DNA from: a virus | DNA length: 40,679 nt | Strand: one strand, 5' to 3' | IMG/VR virus record: IMGVR_UViG_3300012930_000018 | Coordinates: 1 to 40,679 of that record | Shown: positions 1 to 22,061 of the stretch, in pieces | How the letters are laid out: each line of letters starts with the position of its first letter | Position numbering within the stretch: position 1 is the first letter of the stretch | Translations under genes and position numbers: made by a program | The notes under the pieces: model-generated | Told to the model about the DNA's origin: nothing | What the model saw: only the letters and a program-made list of their open reading frames with translations | Databases searched by the model: none

Positions 1-74
1 AGCGAAAATTCCTCGCCCTCATGGATAAAAGCAATCACGTCATTCCCGCCAAACTTTCGCATTTCGATTTTCAT
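1..74 (-). CDS. N-terminal fragment of unknown phage protein
   Basis: A reading frame starts at the ATG at 74-72 and runs off the left edge after 24 codons, beginning MKIEMRKFGGNDVI. Its start overlaps the terminase stop in an ATGA arrangement, so it is translationally coupled to the large terminase and belongs to the late operon. The fragment is too short to assign. The portal often follows the large terminase in podoviruses, but this N-terminus does not look like a portal start. Confidence 0.5.
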   Translation of the reverse strand, partial: MKIEMRKFGGNDVIAFIHEGEEFS

Positions 75-1342
75 CAGTACCCCGCGATCATGTCGAGTGG
101 TTCGTAATCGTGCGTCTCGATTTCCTCGGCAAACACCGGAACGGCAACCTGATCTATATAGGCGAGCGCGTCCACCAGGTCGTCATGCGCCTGCGGATTC
201 GGAAAATCCAAGAATTGCTCGATAAATTTAGTATTCCAGTCGGCTTTGCACAATGACACGCGCCCTTTTTCGAATCGGCCTTGTAGCGCCCACTGGATGC
301 GCTCCGCTTTATTGGTTTTTCCGTGGGTGACGGCCTCGACCCTCGGAAAAATGCCGTAAGTACGCATCTGTTCCTCCAAATACGGCATCACGGCGTTTTT
401 CAGCGCCCCATTTTCAATTCCGACGCACTTCGGGCGCTTCGCGCGGACCTCCATCAAGATCCGGGTCGCAGTTTCACGTACGTCCCACCGTCCGGAGTCG
501 ATATTCCCGACCCACCAACCGCCTTCGTGAACTTTCACCGAGACAATCACTGTTTCGTCGAGCTTCGCACCCGATCGGCCGCGATCAGAAAGCGATTTTT
601 CGAAGCCGGCGAGGTCGCAAGCCATGTACCAGTCGCCCTCTTCGGGCTCCAGCTCGTATTTCAGCCAGGATTCACGGAAAAGCCCGCCTTCGTATGCCTC
701 GAACGAGGCTTCCAGCTCGCGTCTTTCGATCGCGGAGGACTCGTGATAGTCCTCTTTGATCGCATCCAGCTCCGACGAGACCAAAAACGGGTTGTCTTTG
801 CTCTTGAACTGCCACGCGCGCCAGCCTGGAGCCACTTGCGCACGCTTGAAAAGCTCATAGAAGTGGTTTTTTCCCTTGGGCGTACCTATGAAGAGGGCTC
901 CGCCCTGGGCATCCATCAGCGCCGGGCGCACGATTTCTTTCCAGATGAACGGTTTCATGCTGGCGTACTCGTCCAGCACCGCGTAACCCATTGCGTCGCC
1001 ACGCAAGGCATCCGGATTGTCCGATCCGCACACGAAAATCTTCCGCTGATTCACCAGGCGACAAGTCGCGGTGTTCTCGTGATACCACTCGATCAAGCCC
1101 CCGTGCTCTGCCAGGCCCGCTATGCGGCGCAACGGGTCCCACACCAGGCGCTTTGCCTGCTCGAACGTAGGCGCGATGTAGTAGACGTTGGCCTCGCTCT
1201 TGATCTGGAGGCCGTACACGAGCATCTTGTAGATCGCCAGGCGTGTCTTACCCCATCGCCTACCGGCAGAAACCACCTTGAAGCGCGCCGGATCTTGAAA
1301 AACTTCGAGTTGCTGAGGGTGAAGGCTTACCTTAAAATCCAC
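74..1342 (-). CDS. terL: Terminase large subunit (DNA-packaging ATPase/nuclease)
   Basis: Motor of phage DNA packaging: it hydrolyses ATP to pump DNA into the prohead through the portal and cuts the concatemer. The 422-residue length is usual. Visible parts are Walker A GRRWGKT (aa 27-33), Walker B AVLDE (121-125), a coupling motif FIGTPKG (151-157), and a C-terminal RNase H-like nuclease with acidic residues near D243, E310 and the HDD..D cluster at 386-391. The start is GTG at 1342, preceded by a GGGAAAAG ribosome site. It reads leftward, and no small terminase is obvious directly upstream because a block of plus-strand genes lies there. The ATPase motifs make the call secure. Confidence 0.96.
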   Translation of the reverse strand: MDFKVSLHPQQLEVFQDPARFKVVSAGRRWGKTRLAIYKMLVYGLQIKSEANVYYIAPTFEQAKRLVWDPLRRIAGLAEHGGLIEWYHENTATCRLVNQRKIFVCGSDNPDALRGDAMGYAVLDEYASMKPFIWKEIVRPALMDAQGGALFIGTPKGKNHFYELFKRAQVAPGWRAWQFKSKDNPFLVSSELDAIKEDYHESSAIERRELEASFEAYEGGLFRESWLKYELEPEEGDWYMACDLAGFEKSLSDRGRSGAKLDETVIVSVKVHEGGWWVGNIDSGRWDVRETATRILMEVRAKRPKCVGIENGALKNAVMPYLEEQMRTYGIFPRVEAVTHGKTNKAERIQWALQGRFEKGRVSLCKADWNTKFIEQFLDFPNPQAHDDLVDALAYIDQVAVPVFAEEIETHDYEPLDMIAGY

Positions 1343-8705: not shown

Positions 8706-8952
8706 GATTCCTCCGCAAAAAATTACGATGATGATGCCATGCGTCCCAATAAACCCGTGTTGTGTCGAGCCACATCAAAAACGACCAGCCCCAAAAAACA
8801 TAGATAACGAAATGAAAAAAAGTCCCGCCAAATAATGAATCTATAGCAGCAATAAAAATAACCACGAGAAATGCAAGGCACAAGAAAAACATTCGCCGGC
8901 AGCGGCGCAGCTCCGCCAACACTATAAGCAGCGGCAGCTCGTCCTCCTTCAT
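8680..8952 (-). CDS. Two-span membrane protein, 90 aa
   Basis: After a short charged N-terminus (MKEDELPLLIVLAELRRCRR) come hydrophobic spans at about aa 21-38 (MFFLCLAFLVVIFIAAI) and 44-62 (FFHFVIYVFWGWSFLMW). The tail is rich in His, Arg and Asn and lies in the cytoplasm. Overlaps both neighbours by a few codons, so it is a genuine operon member. Function unknown. Confidence 0.7.
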   Translation of the reverse strand: MKEDELPLLIVLAELRRCRRMFFLCLAFLVVIFIAAIDSLFGGTFFHFVIYVFWGWSFLMWLDTTRVYWDAWHHHRNFLRRNHERRNGNA

Positions 8953-9554
8953 TTGCGGGGTTTCCCGCGCAGGGTGTTGTTCTCAAACCTACTGAGGAAT
9001 TTCTGAGACGGATGCGACTGGATCAGATCCCGGATTCGCATGGCAATTTCGGCCCCGCGTGTGCCCTCGATTTCGACAATCAACGCAGCCTGCTCCAGGC
9101 GAAGCCGGCGCTGCTGCTTCGTCTTTTCAATCTCAAGCCGCAAGCTCGCGGTAGGATCGTATAGCCTTATCCAGTTCCTCAATTGATTTTCGGAAACATC
9201 AAACTCCTGCGCGACCTCGGCATAACTGCGCTCCCCGATCATCGCGACCGCTCGGTGTTTGGTCTCTTCGGTAAAGCTACGTTTTACGCCGGCTCTCCGC
9301 GCCGGAATCACCGAAAGCGGTATATCGGCGCGAGAACCGCCCATATCGACACCCGGAAAAGGGTCATCGATGGAGGGAATGAGTCGCGCGGGGACCGCCG
9401 ACTTCGGAATATTGAGTCGAGTCATGGTCTGCCGAATTTTCTTGGGCATGAAGTCGCTGGTCGGAACCCCGAATTTTTTTGCGAGGGAGCGGCGCTTCGC
9501 CATATTCGCGTCACGGACGCGCCTTCCAGCCGCACGAATCGCTTCGTTTATCAT
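8949..9554 (-). CDS. Helix-turn-helix protein with transposase-type HTH, 201 aa
   Basis: The segment RSFTEETKHRAVAMIGE, then SYAEVAQEFDVSENQLRNWI (about aa 90-130), is the HTH seen in IS3-type OrfA proteins and in some phage small terminases. A basic N-terminus (RRSLAKKFGVPTSDFM) may add a second DNA contact, and a coiled coil (LRLEIEKTKQQRRLRLEQ) follows the HTH. No catalytic transposase domain is present, so it is a DNA-binding protein, not an insertion sequence. A transcriptional regulator or small-terminase-like role is possible. Confidence 0.75.
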   Translation of the reverse strand: MINEAIRAAGRRVRDANMAKRRSLAKKFGVPTSDFMPKKIRQTMTRLNIPKSAVPARLIPSIDDPFPGVDMGGSRADIPLSVIPARRAGVKRSFTEETKHRAVAMIGERSYAEVAQEFDVSENQLRNWIRLYDPTASLRLEIEKTKQQRRLRLEQAALIVEIEGTRGAEIAMRIRDLIQSHPSQKFLSRFENNTLRGKPRK

Positions 9555-16141: not shown

Positions 16142-16633
16142 GTGAACGACAAGAACTGTTTTCTCGGGGGGATTCCCGAAAACGATCCGGATGACTATGG
16201 AGACGCTTTCCCTATGCCTAGAACTCACGAAATGATCGAATCCCGCTACCTCAAAAAAGAGGATGTGGGCCGGGGTGTGCTCGCGACGGTCTCGCACTTC
16301 GATCAAGCCAACGTCGCGCTGGACGGGCAGCCGGAAAAAAATCGCTGGCTGATGTTTTTCAAGGAACTCGACAAACCGCTCGTGCTCAATTCAACCAATA
16401 TCCAGCTCTGCGAGCTGGCTTTTGGTTCGGACAACACTGACGATTGGGTTGGCAAAAAGATCGTGCTCTATAACGATCCTCACGTTTCCATGAGCGGCAA
16501 ACTCGTGGGCGGAATCCGCGTGCGTGCTCCGAAGGTGCCGGCACGCGCGCCGCGCCAAGAGCCGCTGCCGCCGCCGCGCGTCGAGGAAGAACCGCATCCT
16601 TTTTCCGACATGGAAGATGACATTCCTTTTTAG
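16142..16633 (+). CDS. Phage protein with SSB-like acidic C-terminus, 163 aa
   Basis: Contains YLKKEDVGRGVLATVSHF, WLMFFKELDKPLVLNSTNIQ, GSDNTDDWVGKKIVLYND and GGIRVRAPK, a mainly beta-strand pattern. A Pro/Arg linker follows, then the tail DMEDDIPF at the very end. That acidic, Pro-Phe-ending tip is the hallmark of single-stranded DNA-binding proteins, which recruit repair proteins through it. First gene of the rightward early operon, before a nuclease and a NinB-like gene. The GTG start is uncertain; ATG at 16214 is the alternative. Confidence 0.75.
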   Translation: MNDKNCFLGGIPENDPDDYGDAFPMPRTHEMIESRYLKKEDVGRGVLATVSHFDQANVALDGQPEKNRWLMFFKELDKPLVLNSTNIQLCELAFGSDNTDDWVGKKIVLYNDPHVSMSGKLVGGIRVRAPKVPARAPRQEPLPPPRVEEEPHPFSDMEDDIPF

Positions 16634-16645
16634 GGGAGACCGAAA

Positions 16646-16858
16646 ATGAAACTGTATGAATACGCCGTGATTTACAACCCGCTGCCGACCAAAGATCAGG
16701 ACGAACGCGGCGAAACGCCCAAATCCGAGCTGATCGTCGATGTGCGGCGCGCACTTTCCAACAGCGACAAGGAAATCATGATGCTTGCGGCCCGCGAAAT
16801 CCCGGAGAAATACACCGATAAGCTCGATCGCCTGGAGATCGCCGTCCGCCCTTTTTAG
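16646..16858 (+). CDS. Small phage protein, 70 aa
   Basis: Begins MKLYEYAVIYNPLPTKDQDE after AGGGGAGA, and contains SELIVDVRRALSNSDKEIMM, then LAAREIPEKYTDKLDRLEI, the pattern of a conserved small phage protein of unknown function that commonly lies beside recombination genes. Compact alpha/beta. Cotranscribed with the SSB-like gene. Confidence 0.75.
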   Translation: MKLYEYAVIYNPLPTKDQDERGETPKSELIVDVRRALSNSDKEIMMLAAREIPEKYTDKLDRLEIAVRPF

Positions 16859-16899
16859 CTCCTACCGCGCCGCAGACAAACGCGAGTAGGAGCGACGAA

Positions 16900-17079
16900 G
16901 TGAAGCCAAAAGCGCTCCGCAAATTCGACCAGATGGCGCGAACTCATCCGGATCAAGGCTGGATGAATACATCAGGTGCTGTCGGAAACACTGCGCTTTT
17001 TGCCGCGCTCGGTTCGAAGAGTCCCGCGACATACACCACCGCTAGCACGGTGAGCGGCACAACCGGCCTGGTGGGTTAG
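16900..17079 (+). CDS. Small protein, 59 aa
   Basis: Starts at GTG 16900 after AGGAG. The sequence has a basic helical start (KPKALRKFDQMARTH) and a Gly/Ala/Ser/Thr-rich end (GAVGNTALFAALGSKSPATY). The stop is one base before the nuclease start, so the genes are coupled. No family recognised; the low-complexity C-terminal half is unusual among its neighbours. Confidence 0.55.
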   Translation: MKPKALRKFDQMARTHPDQGWMNTSGAVGNTALFAALGSKSPATYTTASTVSGTTGLVG

Positions 17080-17080
17080 G

Positions 17081-17734
17081 ATGCCGACACCAAAGGCGGG
17101 CTATCACTTGAAGGACGGTCGCCGTGTCCCAGGCACGACGACCGTTATCAACCGCTTCAAGGATTCGGGCGGGCTCATCTACTGGGCCTGGAACGAGGGC
17201 AAGGAAGGCCGCGACTACCGGGAGACCTCGGGCAAAGCGGCGGATGCGGGAACCCTCGCTCATGCAATGGTTGATGCGCATATCAAGGGGAACCCCCCTC
17301 CGGATCTTGCGAAGGTCCCGGCCGAGATCGCGATAAAGGCGTCAACCGCTTTCGGCGCATACCTTGATTGGGCCGCGCAGTCCAAGCTCGAAATCTTGGA
17401 GACCGAAATCGAACTGATCTCCGAAAGCTATGAATTCGGCGGGACGCCCGATGCTATCGGCTATCTCACAGGCCGGCTCTCCGTGATCGACTGGAAATCC
17501 TCCAATGCGGTCTACGCCGATCATCTGATTCAGATGGCGGCATACAGGCAGCTCTGGCAGGAAAACCGGCCGCACTATCCGATAACGGGCGGCTTTCATC
17601 TTTGCCGGTTCGCGAAAGAACACGGTGATTTTGCGCACCACTATTTTCCGAACCTCGATGAAGCTTGGGAGCAATTTATTTTGTTCAGGCGGGCCTACGA
17701 GATCGACAAGGGCCTGAAAAAACGTGCAGCCTGA
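17081..17734 (+). CDS. RecB-type PD-(D/E)XK nuclease, 217 aa
   Basis: The active-site layout is visible: GTLAH (about aa 57-61), GTPDAIGY with Asp124, VIDWKSS with Asp137 and Lys139, and the QMAAYRQLW motif (Gln151, Tyr155) that marks RecB/Cas4-like nucleases. Such phage enzymes work as 5'-3' exonucleases or end-processing nucleases in recombination and replication. It lies between SSB-like and NinB-like genes, which supports a recombination module. The cysteines of the Cas4 iron-sulphur cluster are absent, so it is not Cas4. Confidence 0.85.
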   Translation: MPTPKAGYHLKDGRRVPGTTTVINRFKDSGGLIYWAWNEGKEGRDYRETSGKAADAGTLAHAMVDAHIKGNPPPDLAKVPAEIAIKASTAFGAYLDWAAQSKLEILETEIELISESYEFGGTPDAIGYLTGRLSVIDWKSSNAVYADHLIQMAAYRQLWQENRPHYPITGGFHLCRFAKEHGDFAHHYFPNLDEAWEQFILFRRAYEIDKGLKKRAA

Positions 17735-18137
17735 AGCACGTATTTTTGTCGTGAGGAATGATCGGCATCGCACTTATGCCGTGCAATTCTTGGGCACATT
17801 GGAGCCGCCTTTTGAGATTTCTGTCGCGCGCGTTCAGCCGCAACGCACGCTGCAACAGAATGCCCGGCTTTGGCTATTGCATACCGAGGCTGGCAGAGTT
17901 ACAGGTTACAGCCCGGAAGAAATGCATGAGTTCGCGCTTTGTCGGCATTTCGGCCATCGCGAAATCTCGCTAGGTGAATTCGGTTCAGAAAGAATCGTCA
18001 GGACCATTCCGCTCAAGCGCTCCAGCACTCGCAACATCCAGGAATTTACCGAGTTCATGGAATCGACCGAAGCGTGGTACGGAACCACCTTCGGAGTATG
18101 GCTGCAAGAGGACAGGCCGTTAAGCGGCTCCGGTTAA
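17724..18137 (+). CDS. NinB-like recombination protein, 137 aa
   Basis: The middle contains PQRTLQQNARLWLLHTEAGR, then YSPEEMHEFALCRHFGHREI and later EFMESTEAWYGTTFGVWLQE. The QN..LW pattern and the downstream helical segment match the NinB family, which stimulates recombination by binding single-stranded DNA in lambdoid phages. The start is GTG at 17724, overlapping the nuclease gene end by 11 bases. Its place between nuclease and regulator genes fits. Confidence 0.75.
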   Translation: MQPEARIFVVRNDRHRTYAVQFLGTLEPPFEISVARVQPQRTLQQNARLWLLHTEAGRVTGYSPEEMHEFALCRHFGHREISLGEFGSERIVRTIPLKRSSTRNIQEFTEFMESTEAWYGTTFGVWLQEDRPLSGSG

Positions 18138-18400: not shown

Positions 18401-18802
18401 ATGCGAGCCAAAGCCGATCTAACCCAGGCGGTCTCGGATCTGGTCGAGGGACTTGGCGAGCCGTTTGCCTCAAGTGATGTGGTGCGCGCGCTGCCGGAAT
18501 TCAAACCCGCAGCCGTGCGCGGATACCTGCATTGGCTCGTGGCAAGCGGCAGGCTCGTTGCACACCGCGAGGCCGGCGTTCCCTACCTCATCTACTGCTC
18601 GCCGCGCGAAATGGAAGCCCAGGGGGAGCATTTTGTTTGCACCCTCGCTTTGATCGAGGCCATGCGGCGCATGGGCGCTCACCATTGCGACCCGAGGCCC
18701 GTTCCGGACCGCAGCGGAGCCGACCTGGCTTGGGTCCGGTCCGTGATCGAGCGTTGCAAGACTCGGCAGACTGTTGACAAGCTCATAGTTAAGCGCGTCT
18801 AA
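18401..18802 (+). CDS. Winged-helix-like protein, 133 aa
   Basis: The first half, with FASSDVVRALPEFKPAAVRG followed by YLHWLVASGRLVAHREAGVP, reads as a winged helix with two helices and a wing. The second half is helical and ends RQTVDKLIVKRV. The start follows the upstream stop by 3 bases, and its stop overlaps the next gene start as TAATG. Possible regulator or accessory factor of the integration module; family not certain. Confidence 0.7.
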   Translation: MRAKADLTQAVSDLVEGLGEPFASSDVVRALPEFKPAAVRGYLHWLVASGRLVAHREAGVPYLIYCSPREMEAQGEHFVCTLALIEAMRRMGAHHCDPRPVPDRSGADLAWVRSVIERCKTRQTVDKLIVKRV

Positions 18803-19044
18803 TGACCGCTGCGGCAATCCAATGGGTCAAGCTCCCCCATTACTGCCAGCTCACCGGTGAAACCGAGTATGCCGTCTACAACAGGCGCTCGCGCGGTGAG
18901 TGGCTTGACGGGGTGCATTGCCAGATGAGAAACCGCCGTTTGTGGGTCAACCTACCGGAGGCGCAAAAATGGGTCGAGTCTGGCAAAGCATCACTCTCCC
19001 CGAAGGGGTCGAGATCAAGCAAAACGGGGGTGCGCCTGCGGTAG
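18802..19044 (+). CDS. xis: Excisionase-like protein, 80 aa
   Basis: The sequence WVKLPHYCQLTGETEYAVYN, RRSRGEWLDGVHCQMRNRRL and WVNLPEAQKWVE has the winged-helix pattern of phage excisionases: an entry strand, an LTG turn, a recognition helix, and a final W.NL.EA.KW segment. It lies directly before the integrase, and its coding end overlaps that gene by 76 bases. Excisionases bend attachment-site DNA and direct the integrase to cut the prophage out. Confidence 0.8.
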   Translation: MTAAAIQWVKLPHYCQLTGETEYAVYNRRSRGEWLDGVHCQMRNRRLWVNLPEAQKWVESGKASLSPKGSRSSKTGVRLR

Positions 19045-20171
19045 GCATCCGCTTCCGTTACCGTGGCGTGCGCTGTCGGGAGCTGTCCCTATCTATACAG
19101 GACCCGAAACAGGCCAAACGTTACATCGCAACCGCAGCAGACAAGCTCGCCACGATCCGGCTGGAAATCGAGCTGGGGACGTTCCGCTACGGTAATCACT
19201 TCCCGGATTCCCCGCGCTGCCGGATTTTCGGGGAAGGGGAAAGCAAGACCAGGACTCTGAAACAGTCCCTGCGCGAATGGCTCGATGCGGCCGAAGAAAA
19301 GTACGAGGCCGGCGACTATCAGACCTATCGCCGGATGGTCGAGCATATCCTGATCCCGCGCGTCGGCAGCAAGCTCGTGGTCAGCTTCAGCCCGCTCGAT
19401 GCGGCAACGCTCGTTACGGCTCTTGCGAAAGAGGGCAGGGTGGGCAAGACAGTGCGTAACATCATCCTGCCGCTTCGCAAGGCGTTTGACCGCGAGCTGA
19501 TGGCCCGCACGATCGAGGCGAATCCGGTACGGCAGATCGCTATTAACGAACACCTTCCGGTTGCCTCCCGCAGGCACCGCACGCCGCTCCCGCAGCCGTT
19601 TAATCAGGCGGAACGCGAAGCCATTCTCGCCGTTGCAGATGCGCAGACCGCGAATCAGTGCCGCGCCTGGTGGGGAACCGGAATGAGCGAGGGCGAAATC
19701 TGCGGGCTCCAGTGGTCGGACTTGAGCTTTGCAACAGATGAAATCTTGCTCACGCATGTCATGGAATCGACCGGGACCCTCCGCGACCGCATGAAAACCA
19801 ACAACCGTCACCGGAAAATCAGGATGAGCCCGGAAGTGAAAGCCGCTTTCACCGCGCAAAAAAAGTTCACCTTCATCGAGGGCGGCTACGTGTTTGTCAA
19901 TCCGGTCACTGGCAAGCAGTGGGCAAGCCCCAGGGCGTCGGAACGCCAGTGGCGCACCCTGTTGAAACGTGCGGGCGTCGCCCATCGCGGCCCGAATCAG
20001 TGCCGTCACACTTATGCTGCCATCCGGATCACGCGCGGGGATAACCTTTTCGAGATCGCTGAGGCGCTGGGCCATCGCGGTATCGAGATGCTGAACAAAC
20101 ACTACGGCAGTATCATCCGCGAACGCGAGGAAGCGGCTGGACAGCGCCGGGGTACGCTGGCGGTTAAATGA
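18969..20171 (+). CDS. int: Tyrosine recombinase integrase with altered Arg I box, 400 aa
   Basis: Site-specific recombinase for insertion at the tRNA-Ser target. The ATG at 18969 follows the CTACCGGAGG ribosome site inside the excisionase gene. N-terminal arm-binding and core-binding parts come first. The catalytic domain shows CRHTYAA (Arg346, with His347 in the HTY), LGHRG and the nucleophile Tyr379 in KHYGSI. At the first catalytic arginine (usual TGLRxxE) the sequence is TGMSEGE: residue 240 is Ser, codon AGC at 19686-19688, one change from CGC. The box II His position reads Asn, as in some relatives. Otherwise intact. Confidence 0.92.
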   Translation: MGRVWQSITLPEGVEIKQNGGAPAVGIRFRYRGVRCRELSLSIQDPKQAKRYIATAADKLATIRLEIELGTFRYGNHFPDSPRCRIFGEGESKTRTLKQSLREWLDAAEEKYEAGDYQTYRRMVEHILIPRVGSKLVVSFSPLDAATLVTALAKEGRVGKTVRNIILPLRKAFDRELMARTIEANPVRQIAINEHLPVASRRHRTPLPQPFNQAEREAILAVADAQTANQCRAWWGTGMSEGEICGLQWSDLSFATDEILLTHVMESTGTLRDRMKTNNRHRKIRMSPEVKAAFTAQKKFTFIEGGYVFVNPVTGKQWASPRASERQWRTLLKRAGVAHRGPNQCRHTYAAIRITRGDNLFEIAEALGHRGIEMLNKHYGSIIREREEAAGQRRGTLAVK

Positions 20172-20918: not shown

Positions 20919-21214
20919 CGGTCATTCGCTTCGTCGCGATTGCGGGTCCGTTCGTGGACCCGAACATTCCCGAAAAAGCGTGGCTCGCTTCATTCGAGGA
21001 CACACCCTGCGGACGCGGACGCGCGAGATGGACGGCCGACCCGAAAAAGGCACTTATATTTCCATCTTTTCTCGAAGCATTCGATTTCTGGAGACAACGC
21101 AGCACGACCGTTCCGATCCGTGATGACGGCAAGCCTAACCGGCCGCTCACGGCATACACCGTGGAGTTCGAAAAGACGGAAGGTTGGCAGAGTGGGAATG
21201 CAGCGGGTTGCTAA
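20915..21214 (+). CDS. Small protein, 99 aa, ending inside a tRNA
   Basis: Begins MTVIRFVAIAGPFVDPNIPE with an ATGA overlap to the upstream gene. The last dozen residues (KTEGWQSGNAAGC) are read from the first 37 bases of the tRNA-Ser gene. The gene's C-terminus is thus made from tRNA sequence, as expected if the tRNA was acquired or moved next to the gene. The upstream 85 residues look like normal protein. Function unknown. Confidence 0.65.
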   Translation: MTVIRFVAIAGPFVDPNIPEKAWLASFEDTPCGRGRARWTADPKKALIFPSFLEAFDFWRQRSTTVPIRDDGKPNRPLTAYTVEFEKTEGWQSGNAAGC

Positions 21215-21270
21215 CCCGCCGAGTCGCGGGAAACCGCGATGCACAGGTTCGATCCCTGTACCTTCCGCCA
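21178..21270 (+). tRNA. tRNA-Ser, anticodon GCU
   Basis: A complete class II tRNA: acceptor GGAAGGT (21178-21184) pairs with ACCTTCC (21260-21266). The anticodon stem GCGGG/CCCGC encloses the loop TTGCTAA with anticodon GCT at 21210-21212. A long variable arm CGCGG/CCGCG precedes a T arm ACAGG-TTCGATC-CCTGT. The discriminator G and the CCA (21268-21270) are encoded. It lies beside attP, so it may be phage-borne or captured from the host. Confidence 0.93.
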
Positions 21271-21311: not shown

Positions 21312-21329
21312 GGGTCAGGCTCGGGTCAG
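21312..21329 (+). repeat. Left attP arm repeats (2 x GGGTCAG)
   Basis: GGGTCAG at 21312-21318 and 21323-21329 start 11 bases apart, on the left of the core. Their phase and likeness to the right-hand array suggest integrase or accessory-protein arm sites. Confidence 0.55.
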
Positions 21330-21345
21330 TAAAAGCCCCAACCCC

Positions 21346-21393
21346 GCGCCAGTCCTGGCGCTCACGAGGGTTCGAATCCCTCTCTCTCCGCCA
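21346..21393 (+). other. attP: attP core: tRNA-Ser 3' end
   Basis: Only the 3' part of a second tRNA-Ser is present: the variable-arm-like hairpin GCGCCA-GTCC-TGGCGC (21346-21361), a T arm GAGGG-TTCGAAT-CCCTC, acceptor 3' strand TCTCTCC (21383-21389), discriminator G and CCA. No matching 5' GGAGAGA half is upstream, so it is not a working tRNA. A truncated tRNA 3' end beside an integrase is the classic form of a phage attachment site, restoring the host gene on integration. Confidence 0.75.
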
Positions 21394-21475
21394 AAGCAAC
21401 AATCTGTGCTTGTTGAAGTTTCAGGGACTTACGCTTATCTGACGTTCTCTGGAGCCGCCTGGAATGGCCCAAAAC

Positions 21476-21513
21476 GGGTCACGAATGGGTCAGGCGGGTC
21501 AGATTTGGGTCAG
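21476..21513 (+). repeat. Right attP arm repeats (4 x GGGTCA)
   Basis: GGGTCA copies begin at 21476, 21487, 21496 and 21507, so spacings are 11, 9 and 11 bases, close to one helical turn each. The array lies 83 bases right of the core and just before the gene at 21531. With the left pair this brackets the core, as arm-type sites do in attP regions of lambda-type integrases. Confidence 0.6.
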
Positions 21514-21530: not shown

Positions 21531-22061
21531 ATGCCTCGGGATAGTGTCTTTGCAGCAGCAGCGAAACAGGCTGAAAAGTTGATCGACCGCAAACTGCGCG
21601 AGCGCCGCAGGGTCCTCGCGATGCTCGCCGCGATCGACTCGGAGCTGGACAAGCTACGCGGGGTGATTGATCTCGCGAAGAATGGCGTCAGTCCCTTTGG
21701 CCCGGCCCGCAAATACAAACCGAAGGAGAGGGCGGCGAAGTCGCTGCCGGCTGATGCTGCGGCCGTGAGCCCTTTCGATCCCCTGAAGCATCAGGTTCAC
21801 ATTCCGAGTCCGCTTTACAAGGCCATCGAAAAAACGCTCGAAACCGCCTCGGGGCCGATGCGATTGGAGGATATCAAGACAGCGATTAAACGCACGAGTG
21901 GCGGCAATTACACGAGCCGCAGCATTACGCTCCAGCTTGCACGCGGGAAAGACCTCCGCCGCTTCCGCTGTGAGGGCAGGGGTCCCAAAGCGTCCTGGCT
22001 CATCATCAAGCAGGCCGGGCGCATCATCACTATGGAGGAATCCCATGAAGCTCAGGCTTGA
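21531..22061 (+). CDS. Coiled-coil and winged-helix DNA-binding-like protein, 176 aa
   Basis: The N-terminal half is a basic coiled coil (MPRDSVFAAAAKQAEKLIDR and on to about aa 50), followed by a Lys/Pro linker and a C-terminal part with IEKTLETASGPMRLEDIKTA, then the pattern of a winged helix ending in SWLIIKQAG. It starts 18 bases after the attP arm array, so it may bind there or be regulated from it. A role in integration or gene control is likely but not proven. Confidence 0.7.
   Translation: MPRDSVFAAAAKQAEKLIDRKLRERRRVLAMLAAIDSELDKLRGVIDLAKNGVSPFGPARKYKPKERAAKSLPADAAAVSPFDPLKHQVHIPSPLYKAIEKTLETASGPMRLEDIKTAIKRTSGGNYTSRSITLQLARGKDLRRFRCEGRGPKASWLIIKQAGRIITMEESHEAQA

Follow-up and report, generated by a model that had tools for sequence, protein, structure and literature searches.

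A phage attachment site formed by a tRNA-Ser 3' end and the possible relocation of a catalytic arginine in its tyrosine integrase

Results

Genes and features around the attachment site

We analysed a single virus record, IMGVR_UViG_3300012930_000018, over its full length of 40,679 bases (the window), which carries no terminal repeats. A gene for a 400-residue tyrosine recombinase integrase occupies 18969-20171 on the plus strand, with Pfam matches to Arm-DNA-bind_2 (7e-14) and Phage_integrase (2e-13). It overlaps the plus-strand gene of an excisionase, or recombination directionality factor (xis; 18802-19044), which matched PHROG excisionase families with a best E-value of 1.9e-6. Ahead of this pair, at 16142-18137, are recombination-type early genes coding for a PDDEXK exonuclease and a NinB/Orf-like protein. 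Further to the right lie a complete phage-borne tRNA-Ser gene with anticodon GCT (21178-21270, plus strand; ARAGORN, Rfam RF00005 at 55.5 bits), which the preliminary description of this DNA had missed, and, directly beyond it, the attachment site at 21312-21512. The preliminary description had placed the integrase and xis genes 1-2 kb from the attP. Both genes were confirmed by Pfam and PHROGs, and the distance held for the integrase (1.1-1.2 kb) but not for xis (2.3 kb). Several ORFs and the tRNA gene stand between int and the attP, a looser arrangement than that of phiCTX, in which the core adjoins int; phages LLS and phiES15 also have intervening genes. Elsewhere in the window, a phage ORF at 8949-9554 (minus strand) encodes a transposase-type helix-turn-helix (HTH_Tnp_1, E = 2e-10), with no catalytic domain of a transposase found alongside.

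The DNA had been read as the free form of a phage, and the gene order agrees with that reading. Integrase, exonuclease and NinB-like genes lie left of the attP; on its other side, matches to the structural genes of a relative, G001, begin at 39.3 kb and run down to 23.3 kb, a short way right of the attP. Because phage genes flank it on both sides, the attP is internal to phage sequence, as expected of a nearly complete, non-integrated genome. The gene for TerL (74-1342, minus strand) and the C-terminal part of the portal gene (from 40679 down) are found at opposite contig ends. In G001 the portal gene directly follows TerL; the ends of the window split that order, and by comparison with G001 about 578 portal residues are absent between them. 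Phage genes on both sides together with this TerL-portal order, as in a circularly permuted genome, support the reading of the window as a nearly complete temperate phage genome in its non-integrated form. G001 (41.5 kb) has 89% identity to the window in the major capsid protein and 67% in TerL, with the same structural order. A search of G001 gave no match to the window integrase or to a tRNA, and the early/lysogeny half seems to have been exchanged between the two phages. We dropped the label of lytic relative for G001, since the lack of a match to this integrase is not the lack of an integrase. No nearest phage was found at the DNA level, where the search matched tRNA-Ser only.

The attP core is the 3' end of a tRNA-Ser gene

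The core (21365-21393, plus strand) reads C-GAGGG-TTCGAAT-CCCTC-TCTCTCC-G-CCA, which in order represents the T-arm, the 3' strand of the acceptor stem, the discriminator and the CCA of a tRNA-Ser. These 29 nt match tRNA-Ser genes exactly from the T-arm to the CCA, and the 5' half of the tRNA is absent, just as had been noticed from the letters alone. The T-stem (21366-21370 and 21378-21382) encloses a 7-nt T-loop (21371-21377), the likely crossover region. A tRNA 3' end without its 5' half, repeats on both sides, and integrase and excisionase genes nearby lead us to conclude that 21312-21512 is, with little doubt, the attP of an arm-binding tyrosine integrase that uses a tRNA gene, a real site and one ordinary in kind.

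A core of 48 bases had been proposed for this site. Such a core would include the variable arm, and the matching host tRNA-Ser would merely be unsequenced. A perfect hairpin at 21346-21361 (GCGCCA-GTCC-TGGCGC) does resemble a class II variable arm; however, the four unpaired bases between this hairpin and the T-stem are unusual for a tRNA-Ser. The exact 48-mer was found in none of 84,980 genomes, and long-core probes of 36 and 48 bases matched nothing in the viral or genome collections. A 70-base query matched 368 of 398 Pseudomonadota genomes sampled, and among the matches listed the alignments start at query base 35, which is position 21365, or at most 5 bases earlier with a mismatch. In genomes where CA precedes the core, exact identity reaches upstream no further than CTCA, in rumen Clostridia; the corresponding 31-mer occurred in 70 genome stretches, mostly tRNA-Ser(CGA) genes of rumen Clostridia, and none extended past CTCA. 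The 29-mer, in contrast, was present in 97 viral contig stretches as well as in prophages and tRNA-Ser genes. The viral stretches inspected share no more than 2 bases directly upstream of the core, and the relatives described below use exactly the 29-nt core. Taken together, these comparisons point to a core of 29 nt, or at most a few more, and make the 48-nt core very unlikely.

The site had also been said to predict its host target, a tRNA-Ser with acceptor strand GGAGAGA. A tRNA-Ser of some kind stands; the acceptor strand and the specific gene do not. Among the tRNA genes examined, the 29-mer ends tRNA-Ser genes with anticodons GGA, GCT, CGA and TGA, whose 5' acceptor strand is mostly GGAGAGA or GGAGAGG. 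Found with four anticodons and mainly two acceptor strands, the 29-mer predicts neither the host nor the acceptor strand. Likewise, the 31-mer stretches never extend past CTCA, so no host can be called from a longer tRNA identity. The search of bacterial genomes that had been suggested as a check, which included the 84,980 genomes and the 398 Pseudomonadota genomes, turned up neither a matching prophage or attB in a host genome nor an attL or attR junction of this phage. We conclude that the core would predict "some tRNA-Ser" only, not which one or in which host. The phage's own tRNA-Ser(GCT), which shortly precedes the left arm sites, is an unlikely target because its T-arm end and the core are not the same (70% identity over the shared 27 nt).

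Several further observations concern tRNA-Ser ends. At seven loci of ruminant-gut Clostridia we found copies of the tRNA-Ser(CGA) 3' end with unrelated upstream sequence, which are likely attachment-site remnants of integrated elements. On a Paraglaciecola chathamensis chromosome (locus L315, 150-6534), an element of about 6.3 kb lies between two copies of the same tRNA-Ser(GGA) core as the window's and has a tyrosine-recombinase ORF inside. In the window itself, an inverted repeat a few bases past the CCA (21399-21417, CAACAA-TCTGTGC-TTGTTG) has a 7-bp spacer and resembles a core-type site; we rejected it as a second core, as a repeat of such length is expected by chance. A minus-strand match to the Rfam family Plastid-psbl-rps4 was also set aside; it scored under the gathering threshold and is the antisense of a tRNA-Ser end.

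GGGTCA repeats flanking the core

Six copies of GGGTCA lie on the plus strand around the core, two on the left (21312-21317 and 21323-21328) and four on the right (21476-21481, 21487-21492, 21496-21501 and 21507-21512). Counted from the centre of the T-loop in the tRNA sense, their offsets are -59 and -48, and +105, +116, +125 and +136. Their spacings are 11 bp on the left and 11, 9 and 11 bp on the right, which bears out the arrangement of two and four copies 9-11 bp apart in the preliminary description. With six copies in 201 bp, GGGTCA is the densest same-strand cluster of any hexamer in the 40.7-kb window, the next unrelated hexamer having five. Dinucleotide shuffling, repeated 60 times, gave densest hexamer clusters of 3-5 copies in 201 bp and never 6.

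We compared this layout with those of phiCTX of Pseudomonas aeruginosa (D13409) and of an uncultured IMG/VR phage, seen as a lysogen, that has the identical 29-nt core (loci L095, L120 and L146). The annotated 30-bp core of phiCTX, like that of the window, runs from the T-arm to the 3' end of a tRNA-Ser, and its integrase is related to the window's at 30% identity, although phiCTX belongs to another type of phage, the Peduoviridae. Hexamers with GGG, paired at 11 bp and in the same orientation, lie on both sides of the phiCTX core as in the window; unlike the window, phiCTX has the motif TGGGAA and two copies per side, at -93, -82, +80 and +91. In the IMG/VR phage the sites are AGGACA at -113 and AGGGCA at -102, +94 and +105, and the paired AGGGCA sites of L095, L146 and a further phage, L099, are comparable to the GGGTCA sites of the window. 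Sixteen additional loci of the clade around L099, whose tRNA-Ser cores have the T-stem TAGGG, carry AGGGCA at +94, repeated 11 bp on. Thus, between the window, phiCTX and the L095/L120/L146 phage the letters of the motif differ, whereas the strand, the 11-bp pairing and the two-sidedness agree.

Intergenic direct repeats could also serve a regulator, as operators or as sites for Xis or a repressor, and the four right-hand copies abut an ORF (21531-22061). Nevertheless, the copies flank the core on both sides, and motifs that change their letters between phages yet keep orientation, 11-bp spacing and two-sidedness are the pattern expected of sites that co-evolve with an integrase arm domain. 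A regulatory role in place of integrase binding is therefore quite improbable. These comparisons support the view, already put forward for these arrays, that the GGGTCA repeats are candidate integrase arm-type sites.

A relative integrated at the identical core

One relative is represented in both of its forms. The contig IMGVR_UViG_3300020458_000005 starts with a complete tRNA-Ser(GGA) that ends in the 29-mer, an attL (L146); a second 29-mer follows phage sequence near the other end, an attR (L120). The matching attP is found in 3300006790_000041 (L095), the left flank of which is like that to the left of attR and the right flank like that to the right of attL. From these junctions, we conclude that the contig is a relative integrated at a core identical to the window's. 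Its integrase gene adjoins the core, and the product has 30% identity to the window integrase and 40% to that of phiCTX. The window integrase itself had no close relative among the viral contigs or the 398 Pseudomonadota genomes; the best match was about 35% identical overall and 33% in the Pseudomonadota genomes.

The integrase has serine in place of the first catalytic arginine

The window integrase combines an IntBPP-1-type arm domain (PF12167) with a Phage_integrase catalytic domain, the combination that places it in the IntBPP-1 subgroup. An AlphaFold2 model gave a confident fold (mean pLDDT 87.7), with Tn1549 Int as the best PDB match (E = 8e-13). The reading frame is intact, as are Lys276, Arg346 (Arg II), His369 (the second His) and Tyr379. 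The first His of HxxR is missing, with Asn343 in its place, and is likewise missing in phiCTX and in the L099 clade. Integrases with PF12167 form the IntBPP-1 subgroup, for which only a weak first His of the RKHRH set was noted (PMC8138268); the window integrase is like that subgroup in its arm domain and its unconserved first His.

Few catalytic residues of tyrosine recombinases are as conserved as the box I arginine (Arg I), and most of these enzymes are inactive without it. At this position the window integrase has Ser240 (codon AGC, 19686-19688, plus strand). In an alignment of ten relatives serine was present in the window alone, and Arg I was found in 89 of 89 relatives of this integrase. 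Moreover, AGC is one base from the arginine codon CGC, and the sequence comes from a metagenomic assembly. The attP could thus be genuine and the integrase dead, Ser240 having arisen by a mutation that abolishes activity or by faulty assembly, with another recombinase at work or lysogeny lost.

The same serine is, however, fixed in a sister clade of phiCTX. In the L099 clade, which includes the isolate Pseudomonas phage KT1, serine occupies the Arg I position at 80 of 80 loci (61-100% identity to L099). Because it is fixed in all members and in KT1 as well, serine in this clade is not a sequencing slip. The clade has only 30% identity to the window integrase, and many of its members, unlike the window, use a tRNA-Ser with the T-stem TAGGG. 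Nonetheless the L095, L099 and L146 phages have the window's 29-nt core, serine at Arg I and arginine four residues past the catalytic lysine (Lys+4), and one Ser-clade member is the relative found integrated at that core, with its matching free attP.

In the window, the Lys+4 residue is Arg280 (codon 19806-19808, plus strand), a candidate relocated catalytic arginine. Apart from it, no arginine of the catalytic domain is shared by the window and the L099 clade yet absent from relatives that keep Arg I; in that clade arginine was present in more than 90% of members by alignment column and in all non-redundant members. Among 62 non-redundant sequences, 21 paired serine with arginine at Lys+4 and 41 paired Arg I with another residue at that position (Gly, Ser, Lys, Val, Glu or Leu), without exception. 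phiCTX keeps Arg I and has serine at Lys+4. A set of integrases from bacterial genomes, partly overlapping with the first, gave 50 sequences with Arg I and Gly or Ser and two with serine and arginine, again without exception where both positions were readable; one more was gapped at Lys+4 and one was a fragment. One of the latter serine-arginine pairs has lost the neighbouring arginine at Lys+2 and kept the one at Lys+4. We also considered Arg274 (Lys-2) as the substitute and dropped it, as this residue is Val or Ile in the Ser clade.

In a tree built with the two trait columns left out, the window integrase grouped away from the Ser clade and two changes were needed. A single Ser clade that includes the window was rejected by the AU test (p-AU = 0.021), a result to be read with caution as the window is a long branch. 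A separate origin of the window's serine/arginine state, which would then have arisen twice, is moderately supported by this tree. Two independent co-occurrences of the Ser240 and Arg280 states are suggestive, not proof. The paired Arg280 and the existence of the Ser clade also argue against an assembly error at Ser240. With every non-redundant serine accompanied by arginine at Lys+4, with one serine-type relative integrated at the same core and with the frame and the other four residues intact, we regard a dead integrase as unlikely. In the model, pLDDT is very low for the hairpin that holds Lys276 and Arg280 (below 50 at 275-279), so its position cannot be read from the prediction; box I and Lys+4 positions that face one pocket would fit the pattern of a small residue, Gly or Ser, at Lys+4 in nearly all enzymes that keep Arg I and of an arginine wherever box I has serine.

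Discussion

The integrase of CTnDOT (IntDOT) lacks the box I arginine, and its function is taken by an arginine further downstream (PMC8138268). The window integrase is like IntDOT in missing Arg I; IntDOT belongs to another tyrosine recombinase subgroup, that of Bacteroidetes elements. Because IntDOT also does without Arg I, serine at box I weakens the claim of a canonical active site and not that of the fold. For the IntBPP-1 subgroup, unlike the window integrase, the main text of the same survey notes no loss of the first arginine (PMC8138268). We found no earlier description of such a case in the literature searched, most subscription journals lying outside its scope.

We propose that integrases of the IntBPP-1/phiCTX group have probably shifted the catalytic Arg I out of box I and into the Lys+4 hairpin, at least twice. 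This would likely be an active-site exchange in which both positions changed together, outside the IntDOT subgroup, present in the window phage and in a large clade that targets tRNA-Ser. In this model, the core-binding and catalytic domains would bind both T-stem arms of the 29-nt core while the N-terminal arm domain binds the GGGTCA direct repeats, with Xis setting the direction. Exchange between this core and the 3' end of a host tRNA-Ser, probably with crossover within the 7-nt T-loop, would rebuild an intact tRNA gene at attL, and Arg280, in the hairpin just past Lys276, would supply the lost catalytic arginine. The model builds on what was observed directly: the identity of the core, the arm-site layout common with relatives, the domains, the serine/arginine covariation and an integrated relative with the same core.

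The site itself is one more example of a phage that targets tRNA-Ser, with a core that does not name its host, and the active site of the integrase is the more important part. Across about 100 non-redundant sequences the serine/arginine swap holds throughout, and the group contains both a sequenced isolate and a prophage found with its attL and attR. The window integrase and the Ser clade look like further inventions of an IntDOT-like solution. Whether a catalytic arginine can come from elsewhere in the pocket is a question that a few point mutants could test, and such a relocation would keep annotators from calling these integrases inactive.
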